From: Sphaerolaimus hirsutus
Taxonomy: Eukaryota; Nematoda; Chromadorea; Monhysterida; Sphaerolaimidae
Length of the DNA: 64,000 bases
Reading direction: 5' to 3'
Assembly (NCBI GenBank): GCA_964036195.1
Contig: OZ038456.1
Span: 1,054,001-1,118,000 of the forward strand
Shown here: in pieces, positions 20,669-60,041 of the stretch
Layout of the letters: each line of letters starts with the position of its first letter
Position numbering within the stretch: position 1 is the first letter of the stretch
Made by a program: the position numbers and the translations under genes
Notes under the pieces: generated by a model
What the model was told of the DNA's origin: nothing
The model's input: only the letters and a program-made list of their open reading frames with translations
The model's database searches: none

Positions 20669-20689
20669 CTGAAAGCAGCTTGCTTGCAG

Positions 20690-34070: not shown

Positions 34071-34433
34071 ATGGGAAACGCTGCGGGTTCGGGAAAACAG
34101 CGCACCGGAAGTCCCCATGGCAATAATGAGCAAAACACTTGGCGGGCAATAACTAGCAGGTGCCACTCACAGACCCTGTAAAAAGCCCTGTAAAATGTCA
34201 AATGTCATGCAAAGTGTCAAAAGTCATGGAAAATGCCCTGCAAAATGGCTACCAAGTTGCCATTTTGTAGGGCATTTTCCATGACTTTTGACACTTTGCA
34301 TGACATTTGGCATTTTACAGGACTTTTTACAGGGTCTGGGAGTGCTCCCAGGAGAGCGCCGAGAATTGATATGGTCAGCTTTTTTGTTGCTGTATTGGGG
34401 TTTTACGCACTGTTCAAAAGGGATTCAAAATAG
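34071..34433 (+). CDS. Two-exon gene for a 56-residue putative membrane microprotein
   Basis: ATG at 34071 sits in a good eukaryotic context (A at -3, G at +4). Exon 1 is 34071-34159 and exon 2 is 34352-34433, ending TAG. The 192-base intron is exactly an introner: exon 1 ends AGCAG, the intron starts GTGCCA and ends CCCAG, in phase 2. The joined product is 56 residues. The N-terminus is MGNAAGSGK, a possible N-myristoylation signal (Gly2, small residue at 6). The middle is polar (TGSPHGNNEQN). The C-terminal part holds one hydrophobic stretch, MVSFFVAVLGFYALF (about residues 37-51), followed by KRDSK. This suggests a single-pass membrane protein with a short basic tail. AATAAA follows 35 bases after the stop. 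Without splicing the reading stops after AITSRCHSQTL. The family was not recognised. Confidence 0.7.
34160..34348 (+). mobile_element. Introner forming the intron of the microprotein gene
   Basis: 189-bp near-perfect palindrome, starting GTGCCACTCACAGACC and ending GGTCTGGGAGTGCTCC, between CAG duplications at 34157-34159 and 34349-34351. The 5' GT is the donor and the right CAG gives the acceptor AG. Confidence 0.9.
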
Positions 34434-34467
34434 GTATCTCGAAAACTTATAAATCCGAGTTTACCAG

Positions 34468-34473
34468 AATAAA
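34468..34473 (+). promoter_or_regulatory. Polyadenylation signal AATAAA
   Basis: Canonical hexamer 35 bases after the TAG of the microprotein gene and before the GCGCC repeat begins. The position fits the 3' end of a short transcript. Confidence 0.6.
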
Positions 34474-34504
34474 GTGTCCACAATCAAGTGTGTCCCATGT
34501 AGTG

Positions 34505-34690
34505 ATGGAATGGCGCCATGGCGCTGGCGCCATTTTAGTTCGCCATTGGCGCTTGGCGCTGCTTTTCTGTGGCACCCTTGGCGCCTGGCGCCCTGTTTCC
34601 GAATGGCGTCATGGCGCTGGGCGCCCTCTTCTGTGACGCCCTTGGCGCCTGGCACGCAGTCCTAAAATGGCGCCACAATGGCGCCAACAC
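34505..34690. mobile_element. GCGCC-rich palindromic element
   Basis: Begins AGTGATGGAATGGCGCCATGG and ends AATGGCGCCAACAC. Filled with TTGGCGCCTGGCGCC-like words. It separates the microprotein gene from the next gene. Confidence 0.65.
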
Positions 34691-34698
34691 GGTTTCAG

Positions 34699-37600
34699 TG
34701 TGAGATGTGTAAAAACGATAAAAATTTTGAAAAATGAGTGCATCGAAAATAGATTTTCAACTCACTATTGCGTAAGTAAACCACGTTTAGTGAGCACCAA
34801 TGCACCCCCCCCCCCATTTTTAGGCGTCAGGCGCAGATGTCCGATCAGCCAGCACCCCCCATTTGACATCGCTGTACATTTACGCCTATGGGCAGACGGG
34901 TATTGGGGTGACCCCGGATTTGCGCTGGCCCGACAAAACGCATATTAGATGCGTGCCTGCGCATCAATTGCTGGACTATCAAGCCAGGTGGGTGAGATTT
35001 AGTTGTGGGTGATTGGTTCTACACCCCTACACGGGGCAGGCCTGATACGCACATCCGCCCGATACGCACATTTGCCCGTTGTTTTCACTTGACACTTTTT
35101 CAAGTGATTTTCAGATATGAGTGAAGTGAAAAAAGTTCACTAATGTCATTGCGCAACTTTTTTTCACTTTACTCATATCTGAAAATCACTTGAAAAAGTG
35201 TCAAGTGAAAACAACGGGCAAATGTGCGTAACGGGCAGATGTGCGTATCAGTGCACCCCCGTTCTACACACACTAGTTTTCACCGTGACTTGGGTGAAAA
35301 CTGAAATGGGACATGGAGGCATACAGCCTACTCTTATTGTATGCTATATGTGTTTTAGTTTTCAAATTTTCACATTTAAACTTCCATTAATAAAAATTCA
35401 GATTTAACATAAATTAATGTTGATTAATCCGCATTTCCAAAAAATTCGGTTTTCACCGAATTCACAGTCAAAACTTGTGTGTGTGGGCACATTGTTTATT
35501 TTGTGGATTTTTTTGCTTTGATTTGTTGCTTGTATTCGGGATGGTTGGAGTTAAATAACGGTTGAAAAAATAGCTTTCTTTTGAAAAAATGCAAGCATCG
35601 AAAATGTTTAAAAAAGCGCAACTAACATTTCTGGTAAACTTCAGTAGGTATTTTAAAATTTTACATACATACACATTGGCATTTGTGGTGTTTTCGATTG
35701 GTTTAAGAACCGGGTCGTAAAAAAACGTTTTTTTCCACCCATACCTTGCAGTAACGTATCTTGGGAAGTGGTGTCGGAGTCATGGGCTAACATCAAGCTT
35801 GGCAAGGTGCCAATCCGAAGGTTTTTACACCAGTGACTTACACTACGGGCTTTTCCCGTTACATTTTCTCCTCGTAAACAATCCAATTAAAACGATCCAC
35901 CCTGCTCAAATAATCCCCCCACCACAAAAATTCGACAGATTTTCAGTGGACAATCTGTACATGAGGCACCTGCCGCTGGACACGTTGGACCAGGTGCCAA
36001 TCCCAGACCCTGTAAAATGCCCTGTAAAATGTCAAATATCATGCAAAGTGTCAAAAGTCACGTAAAATGCCCTGGAAAATGGCAACTCGGTTGCCATTTT
36101 CCAGGGCATTTCACATGACTTTTGACACTTTGCATGACATTTGACATTGTACGGGACATTTTACAAGGTCCGGGACTGCCCCCAGGTGCTCGCCGTGTAC
36201 ACGGCCTGCCCGAATGCGCAGCTGCGTGAGATTCACTTCGAACAGTGCGACACGATGGGCCTGGAAGGGGGCAGGGTGCAGGCTCTGTTGAAGGCACAGC
36301 ATTTGAGGTGTGTGATGGGATGGGGATTAGGTACCGTATTTCTTCTAATAGAAGAGCGCCGTTCTATTTTTTTCGTCAACTTTTTTACCTGCCGTTCTAT
36401 AAGAGGTGCCGTTCTATTGGAGGTATGCCATTACATTAGAAGAAATACGGTATCGCTTTTACACTCCTCGGACTGCGTGCTATGCATTTTTCTGAAGGAA
36501 ACACTCCATCATGACGTCATCGTCAAAAAAAAATTGTTGTGCAAATGTAATTTCATTTACGAAACATGTCCTTGTACTGGGCTCCGTATATTTTATGAAA
36601 GTGAAAGTTCCTGTAAAAGACACTGTTACCGTAAATGCTCTATTAGGACGACCCCCCTCCAATCAAGCGACCTCTCCAATAGTACGACCCCCTTTGGCAC
36701 GTTGTCTAAGTATAAAGCGACCCTCTCCAATAATGCGACCCCCTCCAATAATGCGACCCCCAAGAAAAATAAAAAACAACAAACGGATGTAAGAAAATGA
36801 TGTCGCAATCTTCAGAGTTCAGACGCTGCTAATTCGGCAAATGTTGCCGCAAATTTAGCAAATTTTGTAGCTTTTTGGTGATTTTTGCCTTACAATATTG
36901 TTTTACGATGCCATGCTCATACGAGTTAAACGAACAGTTGAGTTGTTGAGGTGTCGAAAAATACAATGCGACCCTCTCCAATAAAGCGACCCCTCCAATA
37001 ATGCGACCCCCAAAAATGTGCTGAAAACAATAAACCGACAGTCGCCTTATTGGAGCATTTACGGTAAGTGTCAAAGACCCTGTAAGATGTTATGTGTCAT
37101 GTAAAAGACCCTGTAAAATGTCATGTGTCATGTGTCATGTAAAAGACCCTGTAAAATGTCATGTGTCATGTGTCATGTAAAAGACCCTGTAAAATGTCAT
37201 GTGTCATGTGTCATGTAAAAGACCCTGTAAAATGTCATGTGTCATGTAAAGTGTCAAATGTCATGTTAAAAACCCCGTAGAGTTGCATGTGTATCCAAAT
37301 CTTACTTTTTTGTATCCAAACCTTATGTTTTTGTATCCAAGTCTTACTTTTTTACAAAAGATTTTGATACAAAAACATAAGATTTGGATACGATAAAATA
37401 AGATTCGGATACACATGACACGTTACAGGGTCTTTAACATGACATTTGACACTTTACAGGGTCTTTTACAGGGTCTGGGAGTGCCCCGTGGTAGGAAACC
37501 TTAAAGTTAGAAAAAATAGAAAAAATCCCACGTGTTTTTCAGATCAAACGTGCAGCAGTTGACAGATTCAAACGGTGCACTGAGAATGGACCAATTTCGG

Positions 37601-40600
37601 AGCTTGGGTCCCGATGGAAAGGTGTGCGCAATCTTTTTTGTCGCCATTTACAGTTTTGATTGATTACGTCGATGATTATGTCCTATTTACCAAATTCATC
37701 TTTTTGCACATAAGTACAGTTACACTCTCTTAGCGATTTTATTTCACTTTACAACTTTCTTGGCTGCAGTTTCGTGGCTGCAGCATGACACAGTTTGCAT
37801 GTAAATATCTCACATTGTGTGTTTTGAACAGTCTGAAAGTATTATAAAACAGCACGAAAAATTGTACACATTGCGGTTAGGGCGTTTTTTGAGTATCAAA
37901 TCCTGAGGAAAATAAGGCATAAGAACATCAGGGACAGTCCCGAGTCCTGTGAAGTGTAAAATGTCATGCACAGTGTCAATTGTCGTGACAAATGTAAAGC
38001 CATGACATTTGTCATGACAATTGACACTTTGCATGACATTTCACACGACATTTTACACTTACTTTACTCATTACAGGGCTCGTGACTGCCACCAGCCATC
38101 ACCAAAAGTAACCAAGTCCAAATATAAGTAAAAAAACACACCAGAAAACAACAATTCAATGATAATAGTCAATACAATTCTGCTTGCAGCATAAATAAAC
38201 ACCCTCCCGGACAAGTTCACCACCCATTTTTTTATTTCACTTCTAACGCAATATCTCCGTCCATGGGGGTGTTATAAGGCTGAAACTTTGTATATACCGT
38301 ATTACCTCCAATATAAGGCATCCCTCTAATATAAGGTACCCTCTAATATAAGGTATAACTTTTGGCTATTTGAGCGCGACGAAATAAATATAAGATGCCC
38401 TCTAATATAAGGCATACCTCTAATAAGGCACAGCTGGCTGCGTGCCAAAACACGCAAAATAATAAAAATAGTTGCTAAACATGGCGGAAAATGATGGAAA
38501 TGGTGCCGAAGAGCACTGTGATGACCCTTTGTCGACTTCCGCCGCTGAAACGTGTGTCAGTTTACGGCGGCACTATTCACTCGAAGAGAAACTTTGAATT
38601 GTTTACCAGACGAAAATCTGGTGAAAAAAATTGAAGGTACCCTCTAATATAAGGTACCCTCTAATACAACGTATAACTTTTGGCTTTAAAAATCAGACGA
38701 AAACAACATAAGGTATACCTTATATTAGAGGTAATACGGTATAAAGTTGTAAGACCCCTTACTCCGCAACAATGGGGGGAGGTGCGGCGACCCACCCTGT
38801 AGTGAATCGCCGCACCTCCCCCATTGTTGGGGAGTAGAGGGGTCTTACAACTTTATATTTACAAAGTTTCAGCTGTATAACACCCCCATGGACGGAGATA
38901 TTGCATTCGAAGTGAAATTAAAAAATGGGTGGTGAACTTGTCCGGGAAGGTGTTTACAACCACAGAAAAAAAACAAGTAAAAATGTTAACCATCCCCACA
39001 GAGCCACTGCCTGTTCTACCTACACGATGAAGTTCTCTATGAACAAGCCGCGTATCGCCCTTCCAGTGGCACGCCCGCGCCGCACCATTCAACGCCAGCA
39101 GGTGCCACTCCCAGACCATGTAAAATTCTATGTAAAATGTAAAATGCCATGTTAAGTGTCAAATGACATGTAAAAAATAGCCTGGAACATGGCAAAAAAC
39201 GTTTGCCATTTTACGAGACATTTTACATGGCTTTTATTCAACACTTTGCAGGACATTTCACACTTTTCAAGGCATTTTACATGACTTTGACACTCTGCAT
39301 GTCATTTTACACTTTACAGGGCATTTTACATGGTCTGACAGTGCCCCCGGGTCTGAATCTAACTGACCCGGATCCATATTACGATGGATATGCAAATGTG
39401 CCCAGGCAAAGGGGTTCGATGGCTTCCATGGGTTATAATTATGCGAGTTACGGTACTCATAGAAGTTCCAGGCACTCTGTGTATGGACAGAGTGTGGGCC
39501 CCGTTGAAGGCACTCAGCGGTGGGTATTTAATTTTGGTACTTTTTGCATGCAGGGTTAACAAAAATTGAGAATGTGGTAAAAATGTGAAAGAAGAATGGA
39601 GAAGGTATAAAAAGTATTTTTCAAATCATTGCATTGCATAAAAATTGCCCAGTTTATTAAGTACTCTTTTTGCATTTAAATTACTAAATATTCTTGTAAA
39701 TTTCACATTTTACGTAAAAATGGAACTTAAAATTGTTTGTTAAATTAGTTTTTAAAGAACAACACCTTTTTTTTGCAAATCCTAGGGATTTGGTATTTAT
39801 GTTTTTACACGTGTGTCTGATGGAGGTATTTGTGCTTGTCACGTGTGATTGTAGGTATGTGCTCTGTGTAAAATTGTGTAAAGTGACTAGAGCAAACAGA
39901 GAGTGTGCATGTTGAACAGAAGACAATGTTCCCATGACTAAAATCATCGACAACATGATTTTTATGCCGCTCTGTTTGTAACCGAAAAACTAAACAAAAT
40001 ATTCACATATTTACCTAGTTTCGTATCTTACCTATTTTCCATTTTTATTGTGTGTAAAATTTCGTGCTGACAAATTTCTAATCTTCAATTCAAAGGCTTC
40101 CTGTCACCAAATTTTTCCCCCAGCGTTATATTTAGTAAAATACAAGTTTGAGTATCAGTGTAGATTTACATGTCTCGATTTCACTCGATGCAGCCAACCT
40201 CCATCCTATCGAAATCGAATTGAAATACTTGATTGGCCGAAAGTTCCATGACAAAAATAACTTTAAATTTTTCATGCCTAATCTGGTGCCACTCCCAGAA
40301 CCTGTAAAAAGCCCTGTAAAATGTCAATAGTCATGCAAAGTCAAAAATCATAGAAAATGTCCTGAAAAATGGCAAACATACGTTTGCCATTTTGCAGGAC
40401 ATTTTCCATGACTTTTAACACTTTGCCTGACATTTCACATTTTACAGGACTTTTACAGGGTCTGGGAGTGCCCCCTGATCCTTAAAAAACCCAAAAATAA
40501 ATTAAAAACGCCAAAAACCCGCAGAACCAACACCATGTTAGCGGTTCCGCGGCCGACCAGCGGCATAGCGCAACAAGGGCCGATTTACGGGGAGCGTGAA

Positions 40601-43600
40601 AATTGGCGCAATATTGCCAGAGGGCGGCAGCCGCCCTTCAGACTGTATTATCCCGAGATTGTGATCGAATTGGCTTCACAGGGTGGATTGAGTTGTACGC
40701 AGCACGTAGGTTGAGTATTTTTGAGAGTTACGTTTGGTGATTTTAATACCGTATTTCGTCGAAATACCCCCTCAAAATACCCCCTCAAAGTACCCCTCCC
40801 CCCAAATTGAGTGTAAATGACAAAAGCTGCGGTTTGTGGTCCGGGCAACGCAGAACACACGTTTAACACAATGATTGTGTTATGTTAATACAGAACACTT
40901 TATGCCATCTACATACTTACCGTATCACCTCGAATTAGCCCCTCCAAGAATTCACCCAGGTCTTTCCGAGCTGAGTAAAAAAAACCCCACCCCCCTCGAA
41001 ATCCCCCCCCCAGTTTCTGACCTGACTGCTGTCGCCATAACTCCCGCTGTCGGGGGAATTAAGAGATTAAATTTGGGAGGGACGTAGCCGACATTCCCCC
41101 CCCCCCTACTATACTCCAACGCAGGGGCGACGGCGACCCCCCTAAGTGTGGGTCGCCGTATACGCGCAAAAAATCTTACAGAATTTCGCTGTCCGCGTCA
41201 AGTCCGGCACCCAGTGGTTTTTCACCACATTGGCTGCCTTAACTCCAAAAACGTGGACACGAAATAGCTTAAATTTGGGGGGGGGGGTTATTGTCAACAT
41301 CCTGTGGCACCATCGACTCACCAAAAGTGTCGCTCACTGCGTATTTATACCGCGCTGTTTTTTACAGATACAGTGTATGCATCAGGTCCAGGACCAACTT
41401 GCGTTTCACCGAGCCAAATTCACTTCAAATATATTTTTTATTAGACACTTGAAAAGTTGGTATAGGATGCCCTCTAGGGAAGGGTTAAAGGTATAAAATT
41501 GCATAAAAAACCTTACCCCAAAAATGCCCCACTTAGGAATTTTAATGGGGGTGAATGTGATGAAGTCACTTATGACATCATCACCATACAAATTTGTACT
41601 GTGATGATGTCATAGGTGATGTCAGAACAGTCACCCCCATTAAAATTCCTTAGTGGGGCATTTTATGGGGCAAAGTTTTTTACGCAATTTTATACCTTAA
41701 ACCCTTCCCTAGAGGGCATCCTAAACCAACTTTTAAAGTGTCCAACAAAAAAATATATTTTAAGTGAATTTTTAGGATGCAACTGTAGGGGCATTGCTAA
41801 AGTATCGCTTAACAGGTATTTAACTTCACTGCATTGTACAGTATCGTATGGGTCTGTAGAATTGTAAAACTGCATTACATGACTGAATTGAGCATTTTTG
41901 AAAAAAATTATAAGGTGCCGGACCTGATGCAGACAGCACATTCATTGAAAACGCGTTATACCCGCGAGCGACACCTTTGGTCGGTCGCCGGCGCCCGCCA
42001 TTTAGTGTACAGTAAGGGGAGGGGTGTCGGCTATATCCCCCCAGTTTTAGCTTCGTCTTGTCCGCGTTTCTGGAGTGATGGCACCTGAAGTGATGAAAAA
42101 CCACTGGGTGCCGGACTTGACGCGGACAGCGAAATTCTGTAAAAAAATTTGCGCGTATACGGCGACCCACACTTAGGGGGGTCGCCGTGGCCCCTGCGTT
42201 GGAGTATAGTAGGGGGGGGGGAATGTCGGCTACGTCCCTCCCAAATTTAATCTCTTAATTCACCCCACAGCGGGAGTTATGGCGACAGCAGTCAGGTCAG
42301 AAACTGCCTGCCGGACCTGATCCGAACGCAGTTTACATCATGTATTCAATGTATACTCCGGTTACTTTACACCCTGCACGCGTGGTTTCCGCTGAAAGTG
42401 TGCCAACGATGGTTAGGGCGTGCGAGTTTCATAAAAAGATGACAAAATTGATCGTTGTTATAATGTTATTCATTAACATATTCACATCGATGAATTTTTT
42501 TCATCTTTTTACGGAAATCGCATGACTTAACAATCATTGGCACGCTTCCAACATGAGACATAAATCAGTGCGACGGCAGAGTATCATGTACGCCGAGTAT
42601 ACCTGATGTATTAATTGCTCCCGAATATCATCGCATCGCAGCTACGCATCACTAGTAGATACATGTAAGGTATCCCTATTATGTCCAAATTTTTCCTGTT
42701 TGGTCTCACTTATTACCAATTTTGGGTATGTTTTGGCCTTTCGTTTACCACGATCCTTAACGAAATTTTCGGACGAAGTAATAAAAACGCCCTTTGAATA
42801 AGCCCCCTTCGAATTAACCACCCGTCAAAAGTTGCTGGTGAAAAAAAACCCATTGTGTATTTCGAGGTAATACGGTATCCAAATATATAAGTCAATAGAC
42901 TCTTATACATGGTACTGTGGCATTTTTCTACGTATGCGTACGTTAGAAACAACAAATTAGTACTGGGGGCAGTTCAAAAAATTTATGGCGAAATCATCAC
43001 CCCGGCCCCTCGAAATATTTATATCCCTCAAAATTCTCACTCTGAAAAAATAAACCCCTTGGGGTATTTCGAGGAAATACGGTACTAGCATGTGAAAAAG
43101 TGAGGACTTATTGGAGACAGTGATCAAATTTCCCTATGTACATTTCACTCGGACTCGATAACCATGTCTGTCAATTGAGGCGTTTGGTTCCGTAACCCGT
43201 TAAGTGCAAAAGTGAAAAAAGGGTTAAGTGCGGATCTGATATATATTTTCATTTTTCTTTATGATAAAAAAAAATTACCTCAATATCTCATACCGTTCCC
43301 GAGATACAGAGATACCGATTTTTGAAAATTTGTCAAAACTTTAAGTGCGATTTTCAAAAATCCCAAAAACGTGCAGATAACGGGTTTCGGAATCAAACTC
43401 CTCAATTACTGTCACAAGACAGTGTATACCGTTTGATTTGAAAATCTCAAATACCATTCCATCTCAACCTTTTAAAGTCCAATTTCACAACTTTAAAAAT
43501 TTCTCAAAACTTGAAAAATATTTTTTTCAGCCAGTGCGCATTGTACCCGAAATGACCTGGCCCAGCAGCTATGCAGTTTCTACTGGTGCAAACAAAGCCT

Positions 43601-45534: not shown

Positions 45535-45640
45535 ATTAATTGTGTAGCTAAGCAGCTGTTTCTGTCTAATTTGTAAATGTTAATGAGGGTAATGTGAATG
45601 CCTCTTATTGACTTTTGAGCCTGTTTTCTGTTACATCCAG

Positions 45641-45857
45641 GGGCCAGTCCCAGTAAATTAAAGTGTCAAATGTAAAGTTAAATGCAAAGAAACTTGTCAA
45701 TTGTCATGCCAAATGTAAAGTCAAGTGTCAATTGTCATGCAAAGTTTAGTAATAAAATGTTTTATTTTTTGTTTTGATTTACATTTTACATAACATTTGA
45801 CAGTTTACTTTGCATGTGACTTAACATTTGACACTTTACAGGGCTTGGGACTGCCCC
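45641..45857. mobile_element. Introner-like element, GTAAAG subtype
   Basis: Starts GGGCCAGTCCCAGTAAATTA after CAG (45638-45640) and ends CTTGGGACTGCCCC before CAT. It lies in or after the 3' UTR of the plus-strand gene, about 105 bases past its stop, and contains AATAAA. Confidence 0.75.
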
Positions 45858-45860
45858 CAT

Positions 45861-46060
45861 GGTCCAGTCCAGCAAGTTGACAAGTGTTTTACTCTTGACT
45901 TTGCTCTTGACTTTTAACTTGATTCTTGACTTTGTCACTTGCGGAACCAGCAAGTGACAAAGTCAATAGTCAGGTTACAAGTCAAGAGCAAAGTGAAGAG
46001 GCAAGTAAAGAGTCAAGAGTAAAGCACTTGTGAACTTGCGGGACTGGCTCCAGATGGATG
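45861..46060. mobile_element. GCAAGTGG-type element, short
   Basis: Ends GGTCCAGTCCAGCAAGTTGA and TTGCGGGACTGGCTC. The interior is alternating TCTTGACTTT and AAGTCAAGAG words around CACTTGCGGAACCAGC. A smaller relative of the elements at 14650 and 51055. Confidence 0.6.
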
Positions 46061-47828: not shown

Positions 47829-47952
47829 CCGTATTACCTCAAATTATCCCCCACCTTCAATTACCCCCCCTCGAATTACCCCCCCCCCCCCCCCTCAAAA
47901 TTGGCTGGGGAAATAATAAACCCCCATGGGGCTATTTCGAGGTAATAGGGTA
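47829..47952. mobile_element. Short TACCG MITE
   Basis: Starts TACCGTATTACCTCAAATTA and ends TTCGAGGTAATAGGGTA. Only the arms remain. Confidence 0.75.
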
Positions 47953-48054
47953 AATATTTATGTAAGTTGCCCATTTAGCAATAAAATAAACCTTTGGAAA
48001 TAGGTAGCTATCAATATTTATACACGACGCGAATTGAAAACAACCATTTGTATT

Positions 48055-49682: not shown

Positions 49683-49831
49683 TTACTGACAATGTTTTTG
49701 TGTCATCATCTGTTCCCATTGACCAAGATAACACCTGTGAATTTCAAGGTTCACAATTCCGCCACTCATTTTGGTAGTCCATGTATTCTTCAGCAGCACT
49801 GAAAAAGTAGGTTTTGTACAGTGAATTTCAG

Positions 49832-50021
49832 GTGCCACTCCGACACCGTGTAAAAAAAGCCATGTAATTTGTCAAATTCATGCAAATTGTCAAATGTCAT
49901 GGAAAATGCCCTCCAAAATGGCAACTCGGTTGCCATTTCGCAGGGCATTTTCCATGACTTTTGACACGTTGCATGACATTTGACATGTTACAGGGCTTTT
50001 TACAGGGTCTGGGAGTGCCCC
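49832..50021 (+). mobile_element. Introner copy
   Basis: Starts GTGCCACTCCGACACC after CAG (49829-49831) and ends GGGAGTGCCCC before CAG (50022-50024). It could splice on plus, but the flanking exon evidence is weak. The right flank GGGCGC is shared with the next copy. Confidence 0.75.
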
Positions 50022-50082
50022 CAGGGCGCGTTAGTTTCAAACGTTGCCAATCCCGTTTTCAATCAAATTCACAAAAACATAC

Positions 50083-53000
50083 CTCGTTTTGAATACTCCT
50101 CTTGGAAATTCTTTGCTCTCCCCTGGGGGCAGTCCTAGACCCTGTGAATGTCAAATGTCACGCAAAGTGTCAAAAGTCATGTAAAATGCGCTGCAAAATG
50201 GCGACCTAGTTGCCATTATCCAGTGCATTTTCCATGACTTTTGACACTTTGCATGACATTTGACATTTCAGGGCTTTTTACATGGTCTGGGAGTGCCCCC
50301 AGGGCGCTAAATGGCGCCACTGGCGCTTGGCGCCTTTTTTGAAGAGTGCCATGTTCATCTGGCGCTTTTAAAACATCGGTGTGCATACCGTATTTGTATT
50401 AATAATTCCCATTTGAATAATTCCCCCTGTTTGACGAGTGGGGAAAGATAATACCCCCTCGAATAATTCACCCCTTAAGGCAAATGATCAATGTGTTTTG
50501 TTCAATTTGAACAAAAATGGCATGTTATTTTGACATTTAACGATATTTCGTAAAGCGTCTTGATAGAAACATCCTTGAAAATTTTGACGATGTAATAAAT
50601 ACCCCCCCCCCTTGAATAATTCCCCCTCGAAAAAATCTGACGAAATAATAATTCCCCGGGGTGATTATTCGAGCAAATATGGTATATCTCAGAATCAAAA
50701 TGGAAATTTTACACAATCTATGAACGTGACCACTGACCATAATAAAGCAACGTCCTCAAAACAAAAACTTACCTTTCGATACAGCATCTGAATGACACCC
50801 CGGCCTGTGAAAAATTAAATAGGTATAAATTTATGAAAGTGTCATGGTCCGGCTGGGGGCAGTCCCAAGCCCTGTAAAGTGTTAAGTAAAGTGTCAAATG
50901 TAAAGTCAAATGCAAAGTAAAGTGTCAATCAAAACAACAACAAAAAAGAAGATTTTTTTACTAAACTTTGCATGACAATTGACAGTTTACTTTGCATTTG
51001 ACTTTACATTTGACACTTTACTTTACACTTTACAGGGCTTGGGACTGTCACCTGGTGCCGGTTCCGCAAGTGGACAAGTTAAGAGTTAAAACATAAGAGT
51101 TGAGTAAAATGACAAATGGCAAGTTAAGAGTAAAGTGTAATGATAAATGATGATGTTGTAGTTGCCCTACATACTACTTATATTTATAGTTATATTCACA
51201 ACAGTTCAGTAGGTTTGAGTGATTGTGCTGAACCGTTAACTTTTATGTTTCAAGCAACATCAAGTATTGCCTACTTGGGTGTTTAAGTCAGTGGATGTTT
51301 TACCTCAATTCATTTGCCCTACAGGGTGGCCCATTAATGAATATGAGATGTTAATACTTTGAGATCCGTGTCGCAGGGCGACTGTGGTCACATAAAAGTG
51401 AAAACACATCCAACTCAAACATTCACTCTTTCCTCTCGGTTGCCCAGCACCTTGTGGACTTGACACTTGCTCGTTAAGGTCCACGTGCTGGTTCACACAT
51501 TGACATTTGCACGCCGGTGGCATGACTGTCTATTTGCTCTACTACCGTGCGTGCAACATGGTGATCGTACAGTTAAATTAAAGCGAACTCGAGAATCTAC
51601 CCGGGAGTCAAGCAGCGACCCCCGGCACGCGCAAGAAAATTACCGGCTGCGCACCGGCACACGCTAAATCCGCATCTAAGCGGCACGCAACAAAAGTGCA
51701 AACCCAAATGTCAGACAATGACACAGCCCCGTCGGGCTCGGGGCAAGCGAACCCCCCAAAAACCGCTACGCAAATCACGTTCACAGAACGCCAACTAACC
51801 GATAAAATAAATGAATGGAGTGCCATGGGCAACAGATGGGCGCTGCTGAACACGGGTAACACCCTGAATCAATATAGGGATGACACAATCACTGAGGCCA
51901 AAAAGAAATGGCCAAAATTCAACTCACCATGGAAGGACACAACAGACACAATGGCCAGGAAAGTACTCAGAATGGCGGAGAGATACTTCAGCACAACTAC
52001 GGATGACCACATCACGATGGAAAACCCGGAGGCGGAGCAAGATGACGAAGCTGACATTGGCAGCATGCCACTGATCCAACCAGGGAGAAAACCACACATG
52101 GCATATCTGCCAATGCCGCGACAAGAAATCAAAACGCAAAAACAGTCGACAGAACTAACCACCATAATGGACATGATGCAACTACAAATGCAGCAGCTAC
52201 AAGACATCAGACAGGATCAAGGCCAAATGCAGCAACAAATTGACCAGCTGACAAACCAGAAACAACAGCAGAACACGAGTTCACCCACAAACTGCTCAAC
52301 CAATCAACCACAGCGCCAAAACGACCCGTGGTCATGGAAAACGGACGAGCGCCTGGCAACACTGCCAAACGGATCCATTCTGGAACAAATGATCGCGTAC
52401 ATGGAATGTTACGCACTGTCACCTAATGACGGATTACAACAGTTGAGCACACTAAGAGTCCCCCAAGACAAAATGAGCGTAGGACATGTTGCATCAGCTG
52501 CGAGCAAACAAATCAAATTCGACGGAGACCAAAAAGGCAGCACAGGCCCGTTTAAATTTTGGCTGCACATGGTGATGCAACAATCAATGGGTGTCCCAGA
52601 AAGCATGCAGCAGTTATTCTGGAACAGTGTGTTCATGCAATGCCTAACGGGAAAAGCCCAAGAAAAATACATGGGAATCCGCATTTCTAGGCGCCATGAC
52701 ATTTTGTATGTGGTGGACAAGATGATCGAAATCTACAGACAGGAGCACCAAGTGTACTCAGTGGCAGACTGGTACAATTTGAAAGCCATGCAAGGGGAAT
52801 CAGTGTCATCCCTGCACACCCGACTGAGTGCAGAGTTTTACCACATCAGTGAAACCATGTCAGATGAGGACAGAGAAAAAATGATTGGAGACAAACTATT
52901 TTCGGAGGTCCCAAAATTAGTGCCCTCATCATGCTGGTATATGTGGCGCATCCGTTGGATGGATGGAGATTGCTCTTTGAGCAAGGCAGTGACACAAATG

Positions 53001-56000
53001 GATGCTGCTCGTATTGAGGTGGAGAGAATGCGCGCCCAGCGCAAAGAACAGCAAAACCAGGGGAACTGGCAGAAATACAGGGGAAACAGAAATGGGCAAG
53101 CAGAGTGGCGGTGTCAACCAGAACAGAAGCCATGCAGCACAGAAGAGGTGCAAGGTGAAGTGCGAGCCACAGTGGACCCAAAGGACTACAAGGGCCCATG
53201 GTGCACCTACTATCTGCACAGAAACCCTAAGGCTCACCACCCCAACAAATGCTTTGTCAACCCATCATCCCCAGAGTTCAGACCAGAACACGAGCAAAAC
53301 ATCAGGCAGAACAACAAGAGACAGGGGAGAACTGATGAAAAAGCCAAACAAATCATGGCTCACAAGTGTGCAGAGCTCGGGATAACCATGAACAGGGAAC
53401 CCGAACTAGCAAGTCGATATAGAACACAGAATGAAGATGAGGAACTGTCAGATATCGAGAGTTATGAGGACTGGGGAGATCTGGATGACTGGGCGCCAAC
53501 AGTTGCAAGCACAAAAGAGACCAGATGCAACTATACTGCAGGCACACCAGATCCAATGGCAGCAATAATGTTCAAAGGAGTCCCGATCAGAGGGCACATT
53601 GACACAGGCTGCAACATTGGCCTATTTATTGAAGACTCTGCATTGGAGCAAGTTTGGGCAAAAGCAAAAGTGGACCCTGTGGAGGAGCGTAAGAAATTCC
53701 GAGTATACACAGGCAGCCACATTCTCACAGCTGGAAACATCATCAAGGGCAAATGCCTCCGAATATATGACATGCCAGTCAAACATCAGACCCCAGATGG
53801 AAAATGGCACCAGGACATACTGCCTGCAGTTGTGAAACTGATGGACTTCCTACCTCAAGCTCACCCCCTGCTGATCGGAAGGGCAGCCATTTGGGGCAAG
53901 CTGCATATTGTGCAAACAATGCACAGTGAATTAGAGCGACTTTCACAAAAATTTGCCCATGGCATATCAACAAGCAGGAATAAGCAGAGGACTTGCAGCC
54001 CACTGTGGCAGAATTCAGGCCCAAAAAGACTGCACATGGAACAGGTTCATTTGATTCGGCACACACAAGCAATCATGCACCCAGATCCAACCATGAAAGT
54101 AAACCCAACAGTGCCAGACACACCCACGCCAACTGTGCAGACAAAAATTGTGCGACTAATCACACACACAAATGTGCACACACAAACTCTGGAATGGCCT
54201 GCCCCCAACCCACTGCACAATGCAAAGCCAAAAGAGAACAAATATGTGCATCAGCCAGATGGTTTGCACATGTCCTGGCAGCGAATGAGCCATAGCAACT
54301 CCGACTATGGGGCCATCAATGGACACACTCATCCAGCAGCCAGAAATCACACCTCCCGCATCTTCTGGAACCAGACAGTACAGAATGGCACCAGACAATT
54401 TCACCAACCTGGGCACCAGACTTTTCTGTCAAAGGATTGAAAGTGACTGCAATGCAAGAAGGACACATGGCACATCATGATTGTGTGAACTTTTGACTAT
54501 TTGATGCAAATTTGTTTTGGTTATACAATTGTTTTTAGGGCATTTTAATTTTACCTGTCTTTCATATTTTTTTTTTTTTTTTTTTTTTTTGTCAGTTCCC
54601 CCGTAGGGTGAACTTGGGGGGGACTGTTGTAGTTGCCCTACATACTACTTATATTTATAGTTATATTCACAACAGTTCAGTAGGTTTGAGTGATTGTGCT
54701 GAACCGTTAACTTTTATGTTTCAAGCAACATCAAGTATTGCCTACTTGGGTGTTTAAGTCAGTGGATGTTTTACCTCAATTCATTTGCCCTACAGGGTGG
54801 CCCATTAATGAATATGAGATGTTAATACTTTGAGATCCGTGTCGCAGGGCGACTGTGGTCACATAAAAGTGAAAACACATCCAACTCAAACGTTCACTCT
54901 TTCCTCTCGGTTGCCCAGCACCTTGTGGACTTGACACTTGCTCGTTAAGGTCCACGTGCTGGTTCACACATTGACATTTGCACGCCGGTGGCATGACTGT
55001 CTATTTGCTCTACTACCGTGCGTGCAACAATGAGTTAAGAGACAAGAGTAAAGTTAAATGACAAATGATTAGTTAAGAGATAAGAGTAAAGTTAAGAGTC
55101 AAGCAAGTGTATCCAAATCATTTTTTTTGTATCCAAATCTTATGTCGAAAAATAAGATTTGGATACAAAAACATAAGATCTGGATACGAAAAAAAGATTT
55201 GGATACACTTGCTTGACTCTTTACTTTACTTTTATCTCTTAACTAATCATTTGTCATTTAACTTTACTCTTAAATTTACTCTTGTCTCTTAACTAATCAT
55301 TTATCATTTAACTTTACTCTTAACTTGCAATTTTCATTTTACTCAACTCTTAACTTTTCCACTTGCGGAACTGGCCCCTGGTTTCTTCAGCCAGCATTCT
55401 TTAGCTCAAATCAATCAATTTTTCAAATATTAAAGTACTTTTTTCTTGAAATTTCTTGTTGAAGTTCAATACATAGAATACTTTATTAAAATACAAGTTC
55501 GTGAAAATATTTCATTTGAATTGATTATTTCGTCATTTTGTGTCATTTCTCTATTTCATCTAATTTTATTTACTTTCAAAAGTTTTCAATCAAATTCACA
55601 AAAACATACCTCGTTTTGAATACTTCTCTTGGAAATTCTTTGCCCTCCCCTGGGGGCAGTCCCAGACCCTGTAAAATGCCCTGTAAATAGTTAAATGTCA
55701 TGCAAAGTGTCAAAAGTCATGGAAAATGCCCTGCAAAATGGCAACCGAGTTACCATTTCGCAGTGCATTTTCCATGACTTTTGACACTTTGCATGACATT
55801 TGACATTTGACAGGGCATTTTACAGGGTCTGGGACTGGCACCTGATTGAATTGAGCATCCTCACTTTGTCAATGCCAATTTTTGGTGGCCCAGGTACATT
55901 GTTAGCTTGCTTCGATGCAATGAAAGCATTTCGATCGTCTGTGCTGTATTTACAATGAGTAGGATTGAAGAGCTTTGCTACAACTTAAGGGTCTGAATGG

Positions 56001-57919
56001 ATTAAGGTAATGGTTGCTATTGCCAGATTACCGTTTTACCTCGAATCAATCCCCCTTTAAATTCGCTGTCGAAAAAATAAACCCCCATGGGGGTAATTCG
56101 AGGTAATACGGTATCTAGATTATCCGATCTAGTAAATGATTGCAGTATACTTCTGAGTCTTGACAAAGTCTTGAATATTTTCGAATTTTCGAATTTTCGA
56201 ATTTTTTCGGAATTTTCGAATTTTCATTTCACTACTGAAAAAAACACTTAAAAGTCGATTTTTTTCAAAAAAAATCGAAAATTCGAAAATACTTTTCGAA
56301 TTTTTCAGGGAATTCCGTGAAATATAACACATTCTTAAGTTCAATCAGCTAAATCGATTGACAATTGATCCGATTCAGTTTTGAGCATGAAAGAGTTATC
56401 GCAACGAAAAATAACGTCAAAAAACGTTGAAATGGCAACCACCGCAGACCCATAGCTGGAGTCGGGGATGGCATTTTAGGGGATGGGTCAACTAGACTTA
56501 TTCGAGGGGGACTTATTGGAGGATTTACAGTAAATAACTCCCCCCTCAAATAACTCCCCCTCGAATAACTCCCCCCCCCCTTTTTCGAGCGTGAGGAAAA
56601 ACAACTCCCCCCTCAAATAATGCCCCCTCGATTAACTCCCCCCTCACAAATTTCTGAAAAAAAACTCCCCTGGGGACTTATTCGAGAATTTACGGTGGCT
56701 ACTTAACAGCTAAAAGCACTAAATTCAATATTTTCCCCCAAAAATTTTCAAAATCACCCCAAAAAAATCGAAAACTGCCTAAAAAGATTCGAAAATTCGA
56801 AATTCGAAATTCGAAAATTTGAAATTTAAAAATTAATTTGAGGAAAAACTCGAAAATTAGAAAATTCATTGAGGAAAAAACACTTAAAAATTTAAATACT
56901 TTTTTCGGAGGGTTTGCCATCGTTATTATTGACGCGTCGTCCAGTGGAGTGTCTCAAGTTACATCTATCTGACAGTCTGTGGGAACCGTCACTCCAGTGA
57001 AAGGACACTCTCCACGGGCAGTTTTTTTTGTCTAATGTTGGAAGTGTGCCAATGATAATTAAAGTATGCGATTTTTGTGAAACGATGAGAACATTTACAT
57101 ACTGTTTCGTATCGTCATGAAAATCACACGCGTTGAACATTGTTGGTACACTCTCAGCGTGAACACGCTGGACTATAACCAGTTTATGGTGGAAATACCG
57201 TATTTCCTCGAAATACCCCCCCCCCTCGAAATACCCCGAAATAATAACCCATAAATGGCGAGTTTTGTTGCATTTTTCGACGTCTGCGTACGTTTCAGAT
57301 GACATTTTAGTACTGGGATTTCAAAAAATTTCTGCCGAAATAATAAACCCCCCCTCGAAATACCCCCCCCTCAAAATTCTCACTCTGAAAAAATAAACCC
57401 CCCAGGGGTATTTCGAGGAAATACGGTAAGCCAGGAAAACTGACACACACACAGACACAGCATCTGAAAGTGTAATTCATTCTCAAGTGTGACGCGCGGT
57501 TTCAAAAGAACCCCCCGCCCACCCCCCCCCCCCCTCCAAAAAAACAACACTAACGCAGAATTGAAATCGCCCTCGTCGATCATCACCCGTCCGGCTTCAT
57601 CTATAGCTGGCTGGACCTCATCTCGAAATGGTTCCATTCTGCCATTGGCGTCGGAAATGAGACTGTCAGCGGTTGGTGCCGGTTGCACAATCAGGGGGCA
57701 GTCCCAGACCCTGTAAAATGTCAAAGGTCATGCAAAGTGTCAAAAGTCATGGAAAATGCCCTGCAAAATGGCTACCGAGTTGCCATTCTGCAGGGCATTT
57801 TACGTAACTTTTGACACTTTGCATGACATTTTACATTTTACAGGGCATTTTACAGGGTCTGGGATTGGCACCAGAGTGGCGTTTTGTTGGGCTGCCTTGA
57901 ATTGAAGTGGGGGTTTCAT
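50083..57919 (-). CDS. Minus-strand gene, unknown protein, with a duplicated exon
   Basis: Exons read on minus: 57919-57872 (starts ATG, MKPPLQFKAAQQNATL), 57691-57555 (IVQPAPTADSL...DFNS), 55943-55842 (TDDRNAFIASKQ...), 55649-55610 (GGQRISKRSIQNE), 50804-50773 (AGVSFRCCIE; strong TTTTTCACAG acceptor and GTAAGT donor), and 50122-50083, a duplicate of the fourth exon (GEQRISKRSIQNE). Phases agree from the second to the last. Introns between exons 1-2 and 3-4 are introners. The 4.8-kb intron between 55610 and 50804 holds the LTR retrotransposon. The first intron would be GT-TG, because the duplicated triplet is CTG on this strand. Alternatively the gene continues upstream to the exons at 59660-60041 with an acceptor inside the element. 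The product is polar, acidic then basic, with no recognised domain. The 3' end was not found. Confidence 0.5.
50126..50299. mobile_element. Chimeric introner beside the duplicated exon
   Basis: The left end GGGGCAGTCCTAGACC follows CTG; the right end GGGAGTGCCCC precedes CAG and GGGCGC. Both ends are of the GGGGC type and the triplets differ. This fits recombination between two copies. On minus its end supplies CAG before the duplicated exon. Confidence 0.75.
50303..50372. mobile_element. GCGCC element remnant
   Basis: AATGGCGCCACTGGCGCTTGG and a few further words of the GCGCC family. Truncated. Confidence 0.5.
50386..50684. mobile_element. TACCG MITE, GAATAATTCCC subfamily
   Basis: Starts TACCGTATTTGTATTAATAA and ends ATTATTCGAGCAAATATGGTA. 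The arms carry TTGAATAATTCCCCC. A better preserved relative is at 58185-58517. Confidence 0.8.
50856..51051 (-). mobile_element. Introner-like element, GTAAAG subtype
   Basis: GGGGCAGTCCCAAGCCCTG at the left and CTTGGGACTGTCAC at the right, between CTG at 50853-50855 and 51052-51054. On minus it starts GTGACAG after CAG and ends before CAG, so it is splice-competent in the local gene sense. Confidence 0.8.
51154..51558 (+). repeat. 5' LTR
   Basis: Starts TGTTGTAGTTGCCCTACATA and ends CCGTGCGTGCAACA, thus TG...CA. 405 bp, one base different from the 3' copy. Confidence 0.95.
51559..51576 (+). promoter_or_regulatory. Putative primer binding site
   Basis: TGGTGATCGTACAGTTAA immediately follows the 5' LTR. 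A leading TGG pairs with a tRNA 3' CCA end; the matching tRNA was not identified. Confidence 0.55.
51708..54440 (+). CDS. Gag-aspartic protease polyprotein of the LTR element
   Basis: 910 codons from the ATG at 51708 (the frame is open a little further upstream, but only to a GTG). About residues 148-190 are Gln-rich and coiled-coil-like. About 271-415 has the look of a retrotransposon Gag capsid region (FKFWL, FMQCLTGKAQEKYMG, LHTRLSAEF). Residues 499-515 hold a non-classical zinc knuckle, C-x4-H-x5-H-x4-C. An aspartic protease follows, with active-site DTG at 632-634 (HIDTGCN) and the flap-end motif LLIGR at 721-725; the ~92-residue spacing suits a retroviral-type protease monomer. The last 170 residues are Thr/Pro/His/Asn-rich and match nothing I know. 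Usual Ty3-like or Bel-Pao polyproteins continue into reverse transcriptase; this one stops. The frame is intact, which agrees with the nearly identical LTRs. Confidence 0.9.
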   Translation: MSDNDTAPSGSGQANPPKTATQITFTERQLTDKINEWSAMGNRWALLNTGNTLNQYRDDTITEAKKKWPKFNSPWKDTTDTMARKVLRMAERYFSTTTDDHITMENPEAEQDDEADIGSMPLIQPGRKPHMAYLPMPRQEIKTQKQSTELTTIMDMMQLQMQQLQDIRQDQGQMQQQIDQLTNQKQQQNTSSPTNCSTNQPQRQNDPWSWKTDERLATLPNGSILEQMIAYMECYALSPNDGLQQLSTLRVPQDKMSVGHVASAASKQIKFDGDQKGSTGPFKFWLHMVMQQSMGVPESMQQLFWNSVFMQCLTGKAQEKYMGIRISRRHDILYVVDKMIEIYRQEHQVYSVADWYNLKAMQGESVSSLHTRLSAEFYHISETMSDEDREKMIGDKLFSEVPKLVPSSCWYMWRIRWMDGDCSLSKAVTQMDAARIEVERMRAQRKEQQNQGNWQKYRGNRNGQAEWRCQPEQKPCSTEEVQGEVRATVDPKDYKGPWCTYYLHRNPKAHHPNKCFVNPSSPEFRPEHEQNIRQNNKRQGRTDEKAKQIMAHKCAELGITMNREPELASRYRTQNEDEELSDIESYEDWGDLDDWAPTVASTKETRCNYTAGTPDPMAAIMFKGVPIRGHIDTGCNIGLFIEDSALEQVWAKAKVDPVEERKKFRVYTGSHILTAGNIIKGKCLRIYDMPVKHQTPDGKWHQDILPAVVKLMDFLPQAHPLLIGRAAIWGKLHIVQTMHSELERLSQKFAHGISTSRNKQRTCSPLWQNSGPKRLHMEQVHLIRHTQAIMHPDPTMKVNPTVPDTPTPTVQTKIVRLITHTNVHTQTLEWPAPNPLHNAKPKENKYVHQPDGLHMSWQRMSHSNSDYGAINGHTHPAARNHTSRIFWNQTVQNGTRQFHQPGHQTFLSKD
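54614..54624 (+). promoter_or_regulatory. Polypurine tract
   Basis: TTGGGGGGGAC directly before the 3' LTR, the expected position of the plus-strand primer. A T-run (about 54568-54590) lies a little upstream. Confidence 0.65.
54625..55029 (+). repeat. 3' LTR
   Basis: Same 405-bp sequence as the 5' LTR apart from G at 54892. Followed by the duplicated ATGA. Confidence 0.95.
55653..55841 (-). mobile_element. Introner forming a minus-strand intron (phase 2)
   Basis: On minus: exon end TCAATCAG, then GTGCCAGTCCCAGACC ... GGGACTGCCCC, CAG, exon GGGAGGGCAAAG. On plus the duplications are CTG at 55842-55844 and 55650-55652. The intron length of 192 equals that of two plus-strand introner introns. 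Confidence 0.85.
56025..56113. mobile_element. Minimal TACCG MITE
   Basis: TACCGTTTTACCTCGAATCA to TTCGAGGTAATACGGTA; only 89 bp, almost only the inverted ends. Confidence 0.75.
56130..56935. mobile_element. TTCGAATTTT and CTCCCCC repeat fragments
   Basis: About 56160-56320 and 56700-56935 match the TTCGAAAATT foldback at 22303 (right end TTTGCCATCGTTA). About 56480-56695 is a TTACAGTAAATAACTCCCCC / ATTTACGGT element of the TACCG supergroup. No gene is seen. Confidence 0.6.
57196..57428. mobile_element. TACCG MITE
   Basis: Starts TACCGTATTTCCTCGAAATA and ends with its inverse. It contains GTCTGCGTACGTTTCAGA, as in the copies near 12080 and 25840. Confidence 0.88.
57695..57871 (-). mobile_element. 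Introner with CTG duplication in the coding sense
   Basis: On plus it starts GGGGCAGTCCCAGACC after CAG (57692-57694) and ends GGGATTGGCAC before CAG (57872-57874). On minus the triplets read CTG, so the element has a GT donor but ends ...CCCCCTG without AG. Removing the element plus one CTG joins ATG-frame codons NATL and IVQP. Confidence 0.8.
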
Positions 57920-58184
57920 TTTTTATGGATGGTGGTTCAGCGGATTTTTTCGGGTTCAGAAATTGCGATTTATGGTAAATTTTTGTTAAAAAGCATTTAG
58001 GTATTATGTATTTTTGTTTATTACGTAATAAACATTACGTGTTTGTGCTTTCACTGTGGTATTATATTTTATTATATTTACCTATCAGGTATGTTTCCAC
58101 TCATCAAACGGGGGTGCTATTCAAGTGGAAAAATAACTTTTGCTCGCCTGACCGGCAGGGCTCAAATTACTCAAAGGATGGAAC

Positions 58185-58517
58185 TACCGTATTTGCTTGA
58201 ATAATTCCCCCCCTTGAATAATTCCCCCCCTCGAATAATCCCCCCTGTAAGATGAGTGAGGAAAAAATAATTCCCCCCCTCGAATAATCCCCCCTCAAGG
58301 CACACGATCAATTTTTTTTGTCTATTTTGGACAAAAATAGCATGTTATTGTGTAAATAAAGCATGTTTTGTCAAATGAGTTGATGGAAACATGCTTGAGG
58401 ATTCTGACGAAATAATAATTCCTCCCCTTGAATAATTCCCCCCCTTGAATAATCCCCCCTCAAAAAAGTCTGACGAAATAATAATCCCCCAGGGGGATTA
58501 TTCAAGCAAATACGGTA
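58185..58517. mobile_element. TACCG MITE, GAATAATTCCC subfamily
   Basis: Starts TACCGTATTTGCTTGAATAA and ends TTATTCAAGCAAATACGGTA. The arms contain several GAATAATTCCCCC words. Confidence 0.9.
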
Positions 58518-59125
58518 CATTGGTATTTACAGTATTTTCTCTCTCATTGTTTTAAGCCACACTCTTAAGCCCCCCAACCCCCCCCCCCCCCCACAAACCA
58601 ATTTCTCTCTAGCAACAGTCTTCACTCTGTTCTCCATTTCACTAGCACTCAGTTCCTTCGCTTCGCTCAGAACCGACCCGCTTTGTTCGTTCCGATCGAG
58701 AACGCTCGCTGGCGGGTCCGGCTGGCGGCCGCGGCGATTTTGGGGAAAGTATTTTTCTAATGTTATAAAGGGTCCACACAAACTAGTTGACATCGCAAAA
58801 AATGTTAACTGAATGTCAACTAAATAGCACAAAACAATTTTTTAAGCATCACACTTAAACGACAGAAACAATAAAAAATTAAATGGCACGATATAAAATT
58901 ACCGTATTTCTTCTAATAGAAAGGGACGAAATTGAGATGAAACATCTGCCGGCTCCGTCAAGGAGACACAATGAAAATCGTTAAAAAATGCGACTTCATT
59001 ACCTCCACGGGGAGTTATTTTTCGGGGGTTTTCAAGGTGGTACATGTGGATGTGGCCATCTTACACTTACTTCGCCAGCGCTGGTAAGATTCCCAATAAG
59101 GGAGGACATTTGTCTAATGAAATGG
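58518..59125. other. Mixed spacer with MITE fragments
   Basis: Includes a fragment TACCGTATTTCTTCTAATAG (58902) and a GC-rich patch (58660-58740). No gene could be supported. Confidence 0.4.
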
Positions 59126-59653
59126 TGGCCCACATACTAATTGACAATTGTGTGTCAACTGTTCTTTGTCAACTCAGATTTCGGCTTCAAGTGTCGCAAA
59201 GTGATATTCCAATAAATTTGCCGTGATTAGCATGGGTGCACTTAGCGCGATTTTAGCGTTCCAAAAATGGGTGATTTTCAAAAAATTTACGATTAAATAT
59301 AATCTCAGAAAATCTCTCAACAAAAAAAATATTATTAAATCTCTCAGAAAAAACCCCCTGAGAAAATATAAATAAATATAGATAAGAGATTTTATTTTAT
59401 TTTTTCTCATAAACAAAATATAATTAAATCTCCCTGGAAAAAACTGGAGAAAATATAATTAAAACGATATTTTTTTATATTAAATTATATTTATTAATAT
59501 AAATCTCCCAGAGATTTTTGGAACGCTAGCCGTGATATTCTTTTTCAAATATTGCCGCATGTGCATTTGGAGATCGCTCTGAGACACGTGAAGCCGAAAT
59601 CTGAGTTGACATAGACCAGTTGACACACGTGTCAACTAGTGTGCGGGTCGCCA
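59126..59653. mobile_element. GGCCCGCACAC-type element with nested AGCATTG element
   Basis: Left GTGGCCCACATACTAATTGAC and right GTCAACTAGTGTGCGGGTCGCC resemble the ends of the 32437-33563 element. The inside (59224-59536) is bounded by TGATTAGCATGGG and AACGCTAGCCGTGAT, with AAATCTCTCAGAAAA words as in 6975-9078. Confidence 0.6.
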
Positions 59654-59659
59654 AAAAAG

Positions 59660-60041
59660 TTAGTGCGTTTTCAACACGGGCGATAACCTCACAGTTGACG
59701 GCGTCACAATCTGTCCACTCCTGACGGCGATTTTCTCCCGAATCCTGGTCAAAAACTTCGCAACATAATCAAAATACGGCTGGAAACTGGCTCGTTTCAC
59801 TCTGGGGGCAGTCCCAGACCGTGTAAAATGTCCTGTAAAATGTCAAATGTCATGCAAAGTGTCAAAAGTCATGGAAAATGCCCTGCAAAATGGCAACCGA
59901 TTTTCCACGACTTTTGACACTTTGCATGACATTTGACATTGTGCAGGGCATTTTACATGGTCTGGGACTGGCACCTGGTCTGACGTTGTCTACAAATCGT
60001 CGCACCCCATTCGGAAAAATTTCGAACAAATTCCTCTTTTT
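59660..60041 (-). CDS. Two minus-strand exons of an unknown gene joined by an introner
   Basis: On minus: acceptor CCAATAGCAG, exon 60041-59975 (KEEFVRNFSEWGATICRQRQT, phase 2 end), 173-base introner intron, then exon from 59801. The second exon stays open for 46 codons (VKRASFQPYFDYVAKFLTRI...) to a TAA at 59662-59660. It may instead end at GTGAG/GTTATC (59688) and continue to exons near 57.7 kb. The reading is rich in basic and aromatic residues and looks like real protein, but the family is unknown. The first exon and promoter were not found. A transposon end begins a few bases beyond the stop, so the true 3' end may have been altered. Confidence 0.55.
59805..59974 (-). mobile_element. Introner forming a minus-strand intron
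   Basis: On minus: exon end AGACCAG, then GTGCCAGTCCCAGACC ... GGGACTGCCCC, CAG, exon AGTGAAACG. On plus CTG duplications at 59802-59804 and 59975-59977. Slightly shorter than usual because the loop has lost about 20 bases. Confidence 0.88.

Follow-up and report, generated by a model that had tools for sequence, protein, structure and literature searches.

A hairpin transposable element family with CWG target-site duplications as a probable source of new introns in the nematode Sphaerolaimus hirsutus

Introners are transposons which insert into exons and are spliced out as introns. According to the passages of the survey by Gozashti et al. (2022) drawn on here, 175 of 3,325 genomes contain introners, which fall into 548 families; duplications, inverted repeats and several modes of splice-site recruitment are described among them (PMC9860276). 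Among those described there, some carry the 5' splice site and obtain the 3' site from the duplication, with 4-bp duplications and no inverted repeats, while the introners of Symbiodinium and Acanthoeca have terminal inverted repeats and signs of DNA transposition, with a 4-bp duplication supplying the 5' site in the former and no duplication reported in these passages for the latter (PMC9860276). The Amoebophrya introner elements bear inverted repeats, predicted hairpins and direct repeats of 3-5 nt over the exon/intron borders, and in the sections consulted are described as spliced at non-canonical sites and as lacking inverted repeats specific to a family (PMC7789003). Fungal introns of recent origin have, in the excerpts available, been reported to contain pieces of PIF/Harbinger transposons. 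The NuwaI group of PIF/Harbinger is characterised, in the parts of its description used here, by a 3-bp CWG target-site duplication and inverted repeats of 12-61 bp which usually start with GGG (PMC4482050). In a 64,000-nucleotide stretch of the nematode Sphaerolaimus hirsutus (assembly GCA_964036195.1, contig OZ038456.1; hereafter the window), copies of a hairpin miniature inverted-repeat transposable element (MITE) of approximately 190 bp were identified, which very probably constitute an introner family, comprising non-autonomous cut-and-paste elements that turn into introns on insertion into exons. The division of the splice sites between element and duplication is the same as in the introners which carry a 5' site, but here the duplication is a 3-bp CWG and the inverted repeat spans the whole element; unlike in Amoebophrya, there is one family, with GT and, in the copies inserted at CAG, AG. 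Judging from its sequence features, the family very likely fits the known kind of introner, a phenomenon known from other organisms. No introner with a CWG duplication was found in the parts of the literature examined, and an earlier description of such a family may exist.

Each copy of the element is almost one long palindrome with fixed ends (GTGCCANTCCCAGACC and GGTCTGGGACTGCCCC). One end starts with GTGCC, which carries a donor GT, and the other finishes in ...GCCCC, followed by the duplicated triplet; read inwards, the terminal repeats are GTGCC at one end and GGGGC at the other. In the consensus of ten window copies, 174 of 181 positions are self-complementary. A 24-base core of the element is matched exactly 2,270 times in forward and 2,195 times in reverse orientation (4,465 in total) across the genome (348,482,957 bases in 762 contigs, with the window at positions 1054001-1118000 of contig 9) and its reversed control 0 times in either orientation, a count which only approximates the number of elements since an intact palindrome can be counted twice and mutated cores are missed. 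A profile derived from nine copies, with the flanking triplets trimmed, was run over the window and eight fetched loci (L042-L049, with L045, which overlaps L044, omitted), yielding 20 full-length and 17 partial matches (37 in total), the longer copy at 39102 being counted among the partial ones. The copies align end to end at unrelated positions, with similarity reaching up to both ends, as introners do, and the family has the characters of a MITE, being short and of high copy number, with inverted repeats, a target-site duplication and, in each of ten copies, stops in every forward frame. Matching the flanks of 18 copies to the window revealed common flanks only for other repeats and for the pair of copies at 50126 and 55650. 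At each of the eight places named in the original prediction a copy is present, and the reported clustering of lengths at 191-192 bp (second triplet included) holds for those at 34160, 35994 and 55650 (192 bp) and 44632 and 11184 (191 bp), while those at 39102 (249 bp), 59802 (173 bp) and 57692 (180 bp) depart from it.

The ten aligned window copies differ from their consensus by 4.6 to 10.2%, with a mean pairwise identity of 0.883, and this divergence suggests a family of moderate age. No empty or polymorphic site was found on comparison of the flanks with the window, and the portrayal of the family as active or recently active in the original prediction thus exceeds the evidence, as does its view that many introns of this genome are new. 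Older relatives at 20471, 25096, 45641 and 50853 share the ends of the element and have different arms. AT-rich minisatellite-like arrays of 12-14-bp units (TGACTTGACATTTGACTTGACATT...) occupy positions 1-4700 of the window and resemble units in the element arms, which may derive from such arrays or have given rise to them. The 24-mer core has 0 matches in IMG/VR, where 41 stretches matching the 16-base terminus were judged to be chance matches on an estimate from the size of the collection and were left unused, while Rfam at gathering scores and a tRNA search yielded nothing.

Identical CAG (8) or CTG (5) triplets occur on both sides of 13 of the 20 full copies in a mechanical reading, where the chance expectation of identical CWG flanks is 0.00031 per copy on the basis of the window triplet frequencies; two further copies have CTG/CAG flanks and five do not fit. 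The copy at 44632 is among the last owing to a length one base below that of the model, and by eye reads CAG/CAG. As nine of the 20 full copies set the ends of the model, the count is partly circular, and among the eleven full copies not used to build it six have identical CWG flanks. The 3-bp CWG duplication is that of the NuwaI group, and one end of the element starts with GGGGC, comparable to the usual GGG, whereas the other starts with GTGCC and the inverted repeat extends over the whole element. The NuwaI candidates code for both a DDE transposase and a Myb/SANT protein, and the passages on them make no mention of introns (PMC4482050). From the duplication and the one terminal repeat, a NuwaI origin of the family is plausible.

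The most direct link between the element and a coding sequence is found outside the window, at locus L049 on contig 1, one of the eight fetched loci. Here a 192-bp copy with CAG/CAG flanks is located between ...HIEYLNLSKCGRLTDVSL and RSLTATSGRLRALHLAGCSKITGAGL..., and removal of the segment from GT through the second CAG joins the flanks in phase 2. The joined piece matches the F-box/LRR-repeat protein 2 (FBXL2, 6o60_C) with an E-value of 3.5e-46 for the whole sequence, in several repeat registers, with the best domain (i-E 8.3e-14) covering 92 residues free of gaps, the junction included. The Pfam family LRR_6 is likewise matched at 1.8e-12 by the joined piece, versus 0.0013 and 2.5e-07 by its halves, and the unspliced frame contains two stops. 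The element is positioned within a coding exon, and with the element taken out the reading frame of a conserved protein is intact; judged by these alignments, the copy is an exact interruption of a conserved F-box/LRR gene. The flanks of the copies at L042, L047 and L048 were also translated, and a search with the L048 piece yielded no relatives.

A uniform test was applied to the joins of 17 copies, in which the joined flanks had to be stop-free over 60 bases before and 90 bases after the join and the GC content of third minus that of second codon positions (GC3-GC2) had to be at least 0.15, a threshold set within the same script that listed the copies; an exon shorter than the fixed span would also fail this test. 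While 1.7% of 1,182 control CAG sites and 1.6% of 1,182 control CTG sites in the window pass, five of the 17 copies do so, namely three of the nine CAG/CAG copies (35994, 0.46; 44632, 0.28; L049, 0.16), two of the five CTG/CTG copies (40286, 0.16; L048, 0.46) and none of the three with unequal flanks. Coding-like joins are therefore in excess at the copies relative to the control sites. The original prediction had placed copies exactly between exons joined in frame at six or more sites, and this is borne out at 35994 and 44632. The joins at 59802 (GC3-GC2 -0.02) and 39102 (-0.12) are open, with a composition that is not coding-like, and those at 34160 and 55650 are weak candidates which, together with 57692 and 11184, are not open over the fixed span. 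As regards the two sites it had considered probable, 57695 (57692 here) has a CTG duplication and 11186 (11184 here), with CTG/AGG flanks, is unsupported as an intron. At 39102 and 57695 the element end lacks an AG.

With exon ends chosen by hand, and picked with a stop-free join in view, the join is the sole stop-free frame at 35994, 44632, 39102, 55650, 59802 and 57692. At 1,384 control CAG sites, however, the same open span is reached in 26% (34160), 6% (35994), 12% (44632), 14% (39102), 39% (55650) and 10% (59802) of cases, and since control sites often reach the same span, an open joined frame was rejected as proof of an intron. Pfam searches with four window exon models gave nothing usable. 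The host gene at 34-45.6 kb was initially read as an LRR protein, a reading which was dropped without homologs, and a reading of the host of the 59802 copy as a thrombospondin-like repeat, based on a motif, was not borne out by Pfam. Downstream of the 59802 junction, at window positions 59680-59800 on the reverse strand, a neighbouring frame reads CCEVFDQDSGENRRQEWTDCDAVNCEV and looks more protein-like than the joined frame; a frameshift in this host gene is possible, and Pfam yielded nothing for the neighbouring frame.

A transposase, probably of the PIF/Harbinger NuwaI type, would insert the element at CWG and duplicate this triplet. Where the sense target is CAG and the GT end of the element lies upstream, the arrangement CAG/GTGCC...GCCCC-CAG/exon (slashes denoting splice boundaries) would result, in which the GT comes from the element and the AG from the duplicate, and splicing from the GT to the second CAG would restore the target exactly. 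The long hairpin would bring the ends together, presumably in a helper role, and pair most internal GT and AG decoys. Ten copies were folded with 20-base flanks and the pairing probabilities of GT and AG determined. All ten form strong hairpins, that of 44632 with its flanks having a free energy of -147.8 kcal/mol (z -17.8 versus shuffles), with mean pairing probabilities of 0.78-1.00 for internal AG and 0.76-0.99 for internal GT. For the copies at 34160, 35994, 44632, 55650 and 59802, the pairing probability is 0.46-0.68 at the donor GT and 0.04-0.50 at the terminal AG. The terminal repeats GGGGC and GTGCC differ at two positions, both located in the hairpin base, and the GT is created by one of these differences.

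Several results weigh against the interpretation of these elements as introners. The junction is proven by homology at one locus, L049, which lies outside the window, and 12 of the 17 joins are not coding-like in the uniform test, including those of the CAG copies at 34160, 49832, 50853, 55650, 59802 and L047, while two CTG copies (L048 and 40286) pass. Pfam returned 0 families for 145 window open reading frames (ORFs) at an E-value of 0.01, and for eight window exon models one weak match, to DUF3950 (E 0.41), below the cut-off of that family. Of two window exon models compared with solved structures, one had none at an E-value of 1 and the other a single non-significant match (E 0.26), a guessed window gene model had no relatives at an E-value of 1, and the L048 piece had nothing near the Pfam cut-off and no protein or structure relatives. 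Within the element, TTTTACAG sites look like acceptors no worse than the terminal CCCCCAG. The donor GT is mostly paired (0.98-1.00) in the copies at 39102, 49832 and 57692, and the terminal dinucleotide is paired (1.00) in those at 39102 and 11184; the pairing probabilities across copies thus point to a general hiding of decoys, but not to a general exposure of the true sites. The failing joins would fit ordinary MITEs situated in introns and between genes, some near or within existing introns, with the neat junctions representing selected coincidences, as would the commonness of open frames of such length in this sequence and the more than 4,000 core matches, so that most copies may be intergenic. 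This explanation is nevertheless improbable, as at L049 an LRR repeat is interrupted precisely, to the nucleotide, at the element ends, and copies have coding-like joins far more often than control sites do (5/17 versus approximately 1.7%), which, along with the CWG duplications and the occurrence of the core thousands of times in the genome, supports the introner reading given in the original prediction. Less probable still is the copying of introns through RNA, by reverse splicing and reverse transcription, as has been proposed for fungal introner-like elements. The copies do have common ends with GT and often AG, and the context CAG/G could be usable by reverse splicing as well, but the duplicated CWG in 13 of 20 copies, five of them with CTG, an unusual end for an intron, the full-length palindrome, and the older relatives at 20471 and 25096, which share the ends and have CTG/CTG flanks and no open join, all argue against it.

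Insertion at CTG hands over no usual AG at the element end, and the copies at such sites raise the further possibility, compatible with the introner explanation, that splicing is guided by the hairpin and is partly non-canonical. As has been proposed for the Amoebophrya introners, the inverted repeats would then draw the direct repeats together, the end dinucleotide would be of minor importance and copies with CTG or CGG would also be removed. The composition at the join is strongly coding-like in the L048 copy (CTG/CTG; GC3-GC2 0.46) and moderately so in that at 40286 (CTG/CTG; 0.16), while 57692 (CTG/CTG), where the duplication would cause the element to end in TG, is stop-free over a hand-chosen stretch in which the other frames hold four and three stops, and in the 39102 copy CGG replaces the second CAG. 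The rule that only CAG insertions make introns is weakened by the coding-like CTG copies at L048 and 40286 and by the stop-free 57692, and at L048 splicing would have to rely either on an AG close by or on an end other than AG. The strong hairpins of all ten folded copies are also consistent with guidance by the hairpin. However, L049, where homology proves the junction, and the two best window cases carry both GT and AG, an AG located 27 bases downstream in L048 would keep the frame, as would one upstream in 39102 (39340-39341, giving a 240-bp intron), L048 is without recognisable relatives, and a CTG insertion may simply stay unspliced. Hairpin-guided splicing of this kind is rather unlikely. 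Similarly doubtful is the bolder proposal that the hairpin, and not the AG alone, defines the 3' end, such that a PIF/Harbinger-type transposase with CWG specificity would have seeded introns over the 348-Mb genome and the CTG copies (L048, 40286 and 57692) would be removed as well, with a GT...TG end positioned by the hairpin, and CAG insertions would become GT-AG introns. On this proposal, a change of one terminal repeat from GGGGC to GTGCC through two substitutions would have created the donor and weakened the hairpin base, with the stem hiding internal decoys.

The copies in the window and the associated candidate exon segments are listed in Table 1. The stretches at 50026-50125 and 55582-55671 are duplicates (96.7% identity over 90 bases and 97.2% over 71), the duplicated stretch to the left of the 50126 copy being the flank of the 55650 copy. 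Taken together with the GGGGC at both ends of the former, this suggests recombination between copies.

Table 1. Copies of the element, older relatives and candidate exon segments in the window
Feature	Position in window	Strand	Flanks	Remarks
Copy, 191 bp	11184..11374	-	CTG/AGG	Right flank unclear; intron unsupported
Older relative, same ends	20471..20671	+	CTG/CTG	Join not open
Older relative	25096..25297	+	CTG/CTG	Join not open
Element with second CAG, 192 bp	34160..34351	+	CAG/CAG	Candidate intron, phase 2, weakly supported; not open over fixed span
Upstream exon segment, reads VDNLYMRHLPLDTLDQ	35946..35993	+		Precedes 35994 copy; start provisional
Element with second CAG, 192 bp	35994..36185	+	CAG/CAG	Candidate intron, phase 0; coding-like join
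Downstream exon segment, reads VLAVYTACPNAQLREIHFEQCDTMGLEGGRVQALLKAQHLR	36186..36308	+		Follows 35994 copy; end guessed
Candidate exon after CCCCACAG, reads SHCLFYLHDEVLYEQAAYRPSSGTPAPHHSTPA	39002..39101	+		Precedes 39102 copy
Longer copy, 249 bp	39102..39350	+	CAG/CGG	
Copy	40286..40477	+	CTG/CTG	Join open in one frame, GC3-GC2 0.16; 6 stops in each other frame
Upstream candidate exon after TTCCACAG, reads ATMHTLTTLLNNLTVSQ	44581..44631	+		Precedes 44632 copy
Element with second CAG, 191 bp	44632..44822	+		Candidate intron, phase 0; coding-like join
Downstream exon segment, reads VSRSARCLTFAGCDFSVITADSFADFLKAHTPNLDEVNFDATCTSLQQ	44823..44967	+		Follows 44632 copy; end guessed
Older relative	45641..45860	+	CAG/CAT	
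Copy	49832..50024	+	CAG/CAG	Join not open
Copy with GGGGC at both ends	50126..50302	-	CTG/CAG	Flanks read as -; probably recombinant
Older relative	50853..51051	-	CAG/CAG	Join not open
Element with second CAG, 192 bp	55650..55841	-	CAG/CAG	Candidate intron, phase 2, weakly supported; not open over fixed span
Copy, 180 bp with target-site duplication	57692..57871	-	CTG/CTG	Apparently coding stretch; no AG at end
Element with second CAG, 173 bp	59802..59974	-	CAG/CAG	Candidate intron, phase 2; join open, composition not coding-like

Aside from this family, the window contains a second MITE-like family at 45865-46053 and near 55375, with AAGTCAAGAG-type units and ends resembling GGGACTGG/CCAGTTCCGC, as well as repeat families of the type TACCGTATTACCTCGAAATACCCCC, with several copies each, at 13979, 28452, 60693 and other positions. 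A tandem satellite with a period near 117 bp is located at 15918-19139, comprising 12 to 23 copies depending on the reference unit. A gag-like open frame of 952 codons with an HIDTG motif, which we take to be protease-like, is encoded on the forward strand at 51582-54437, and has no Pfam family at an E-value of 1 and no relatives at 0.001. In the fetched locus L044 (positions 1-3024), partial copies of the element adjoin AATATCGATATT-type sequence.

In the present family, the choice of landing site by a transposon would be tied directly to the making of new introns, which touches on the old questions of the origin of new introns and of their preference for CAG/G sites. The two natural classes of insertion, of which that at CAG hands an AG to the spliceosome and that at CTG does not, represent a built-in control, and the shares of CAG and CTG copies at exon junctions and elsewhere would allow target choice, splice-site supply and selection to be weighed in intron gain. 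The CTG copies at coding-like joins further raise the question of whether the hairpin can replace the AG.

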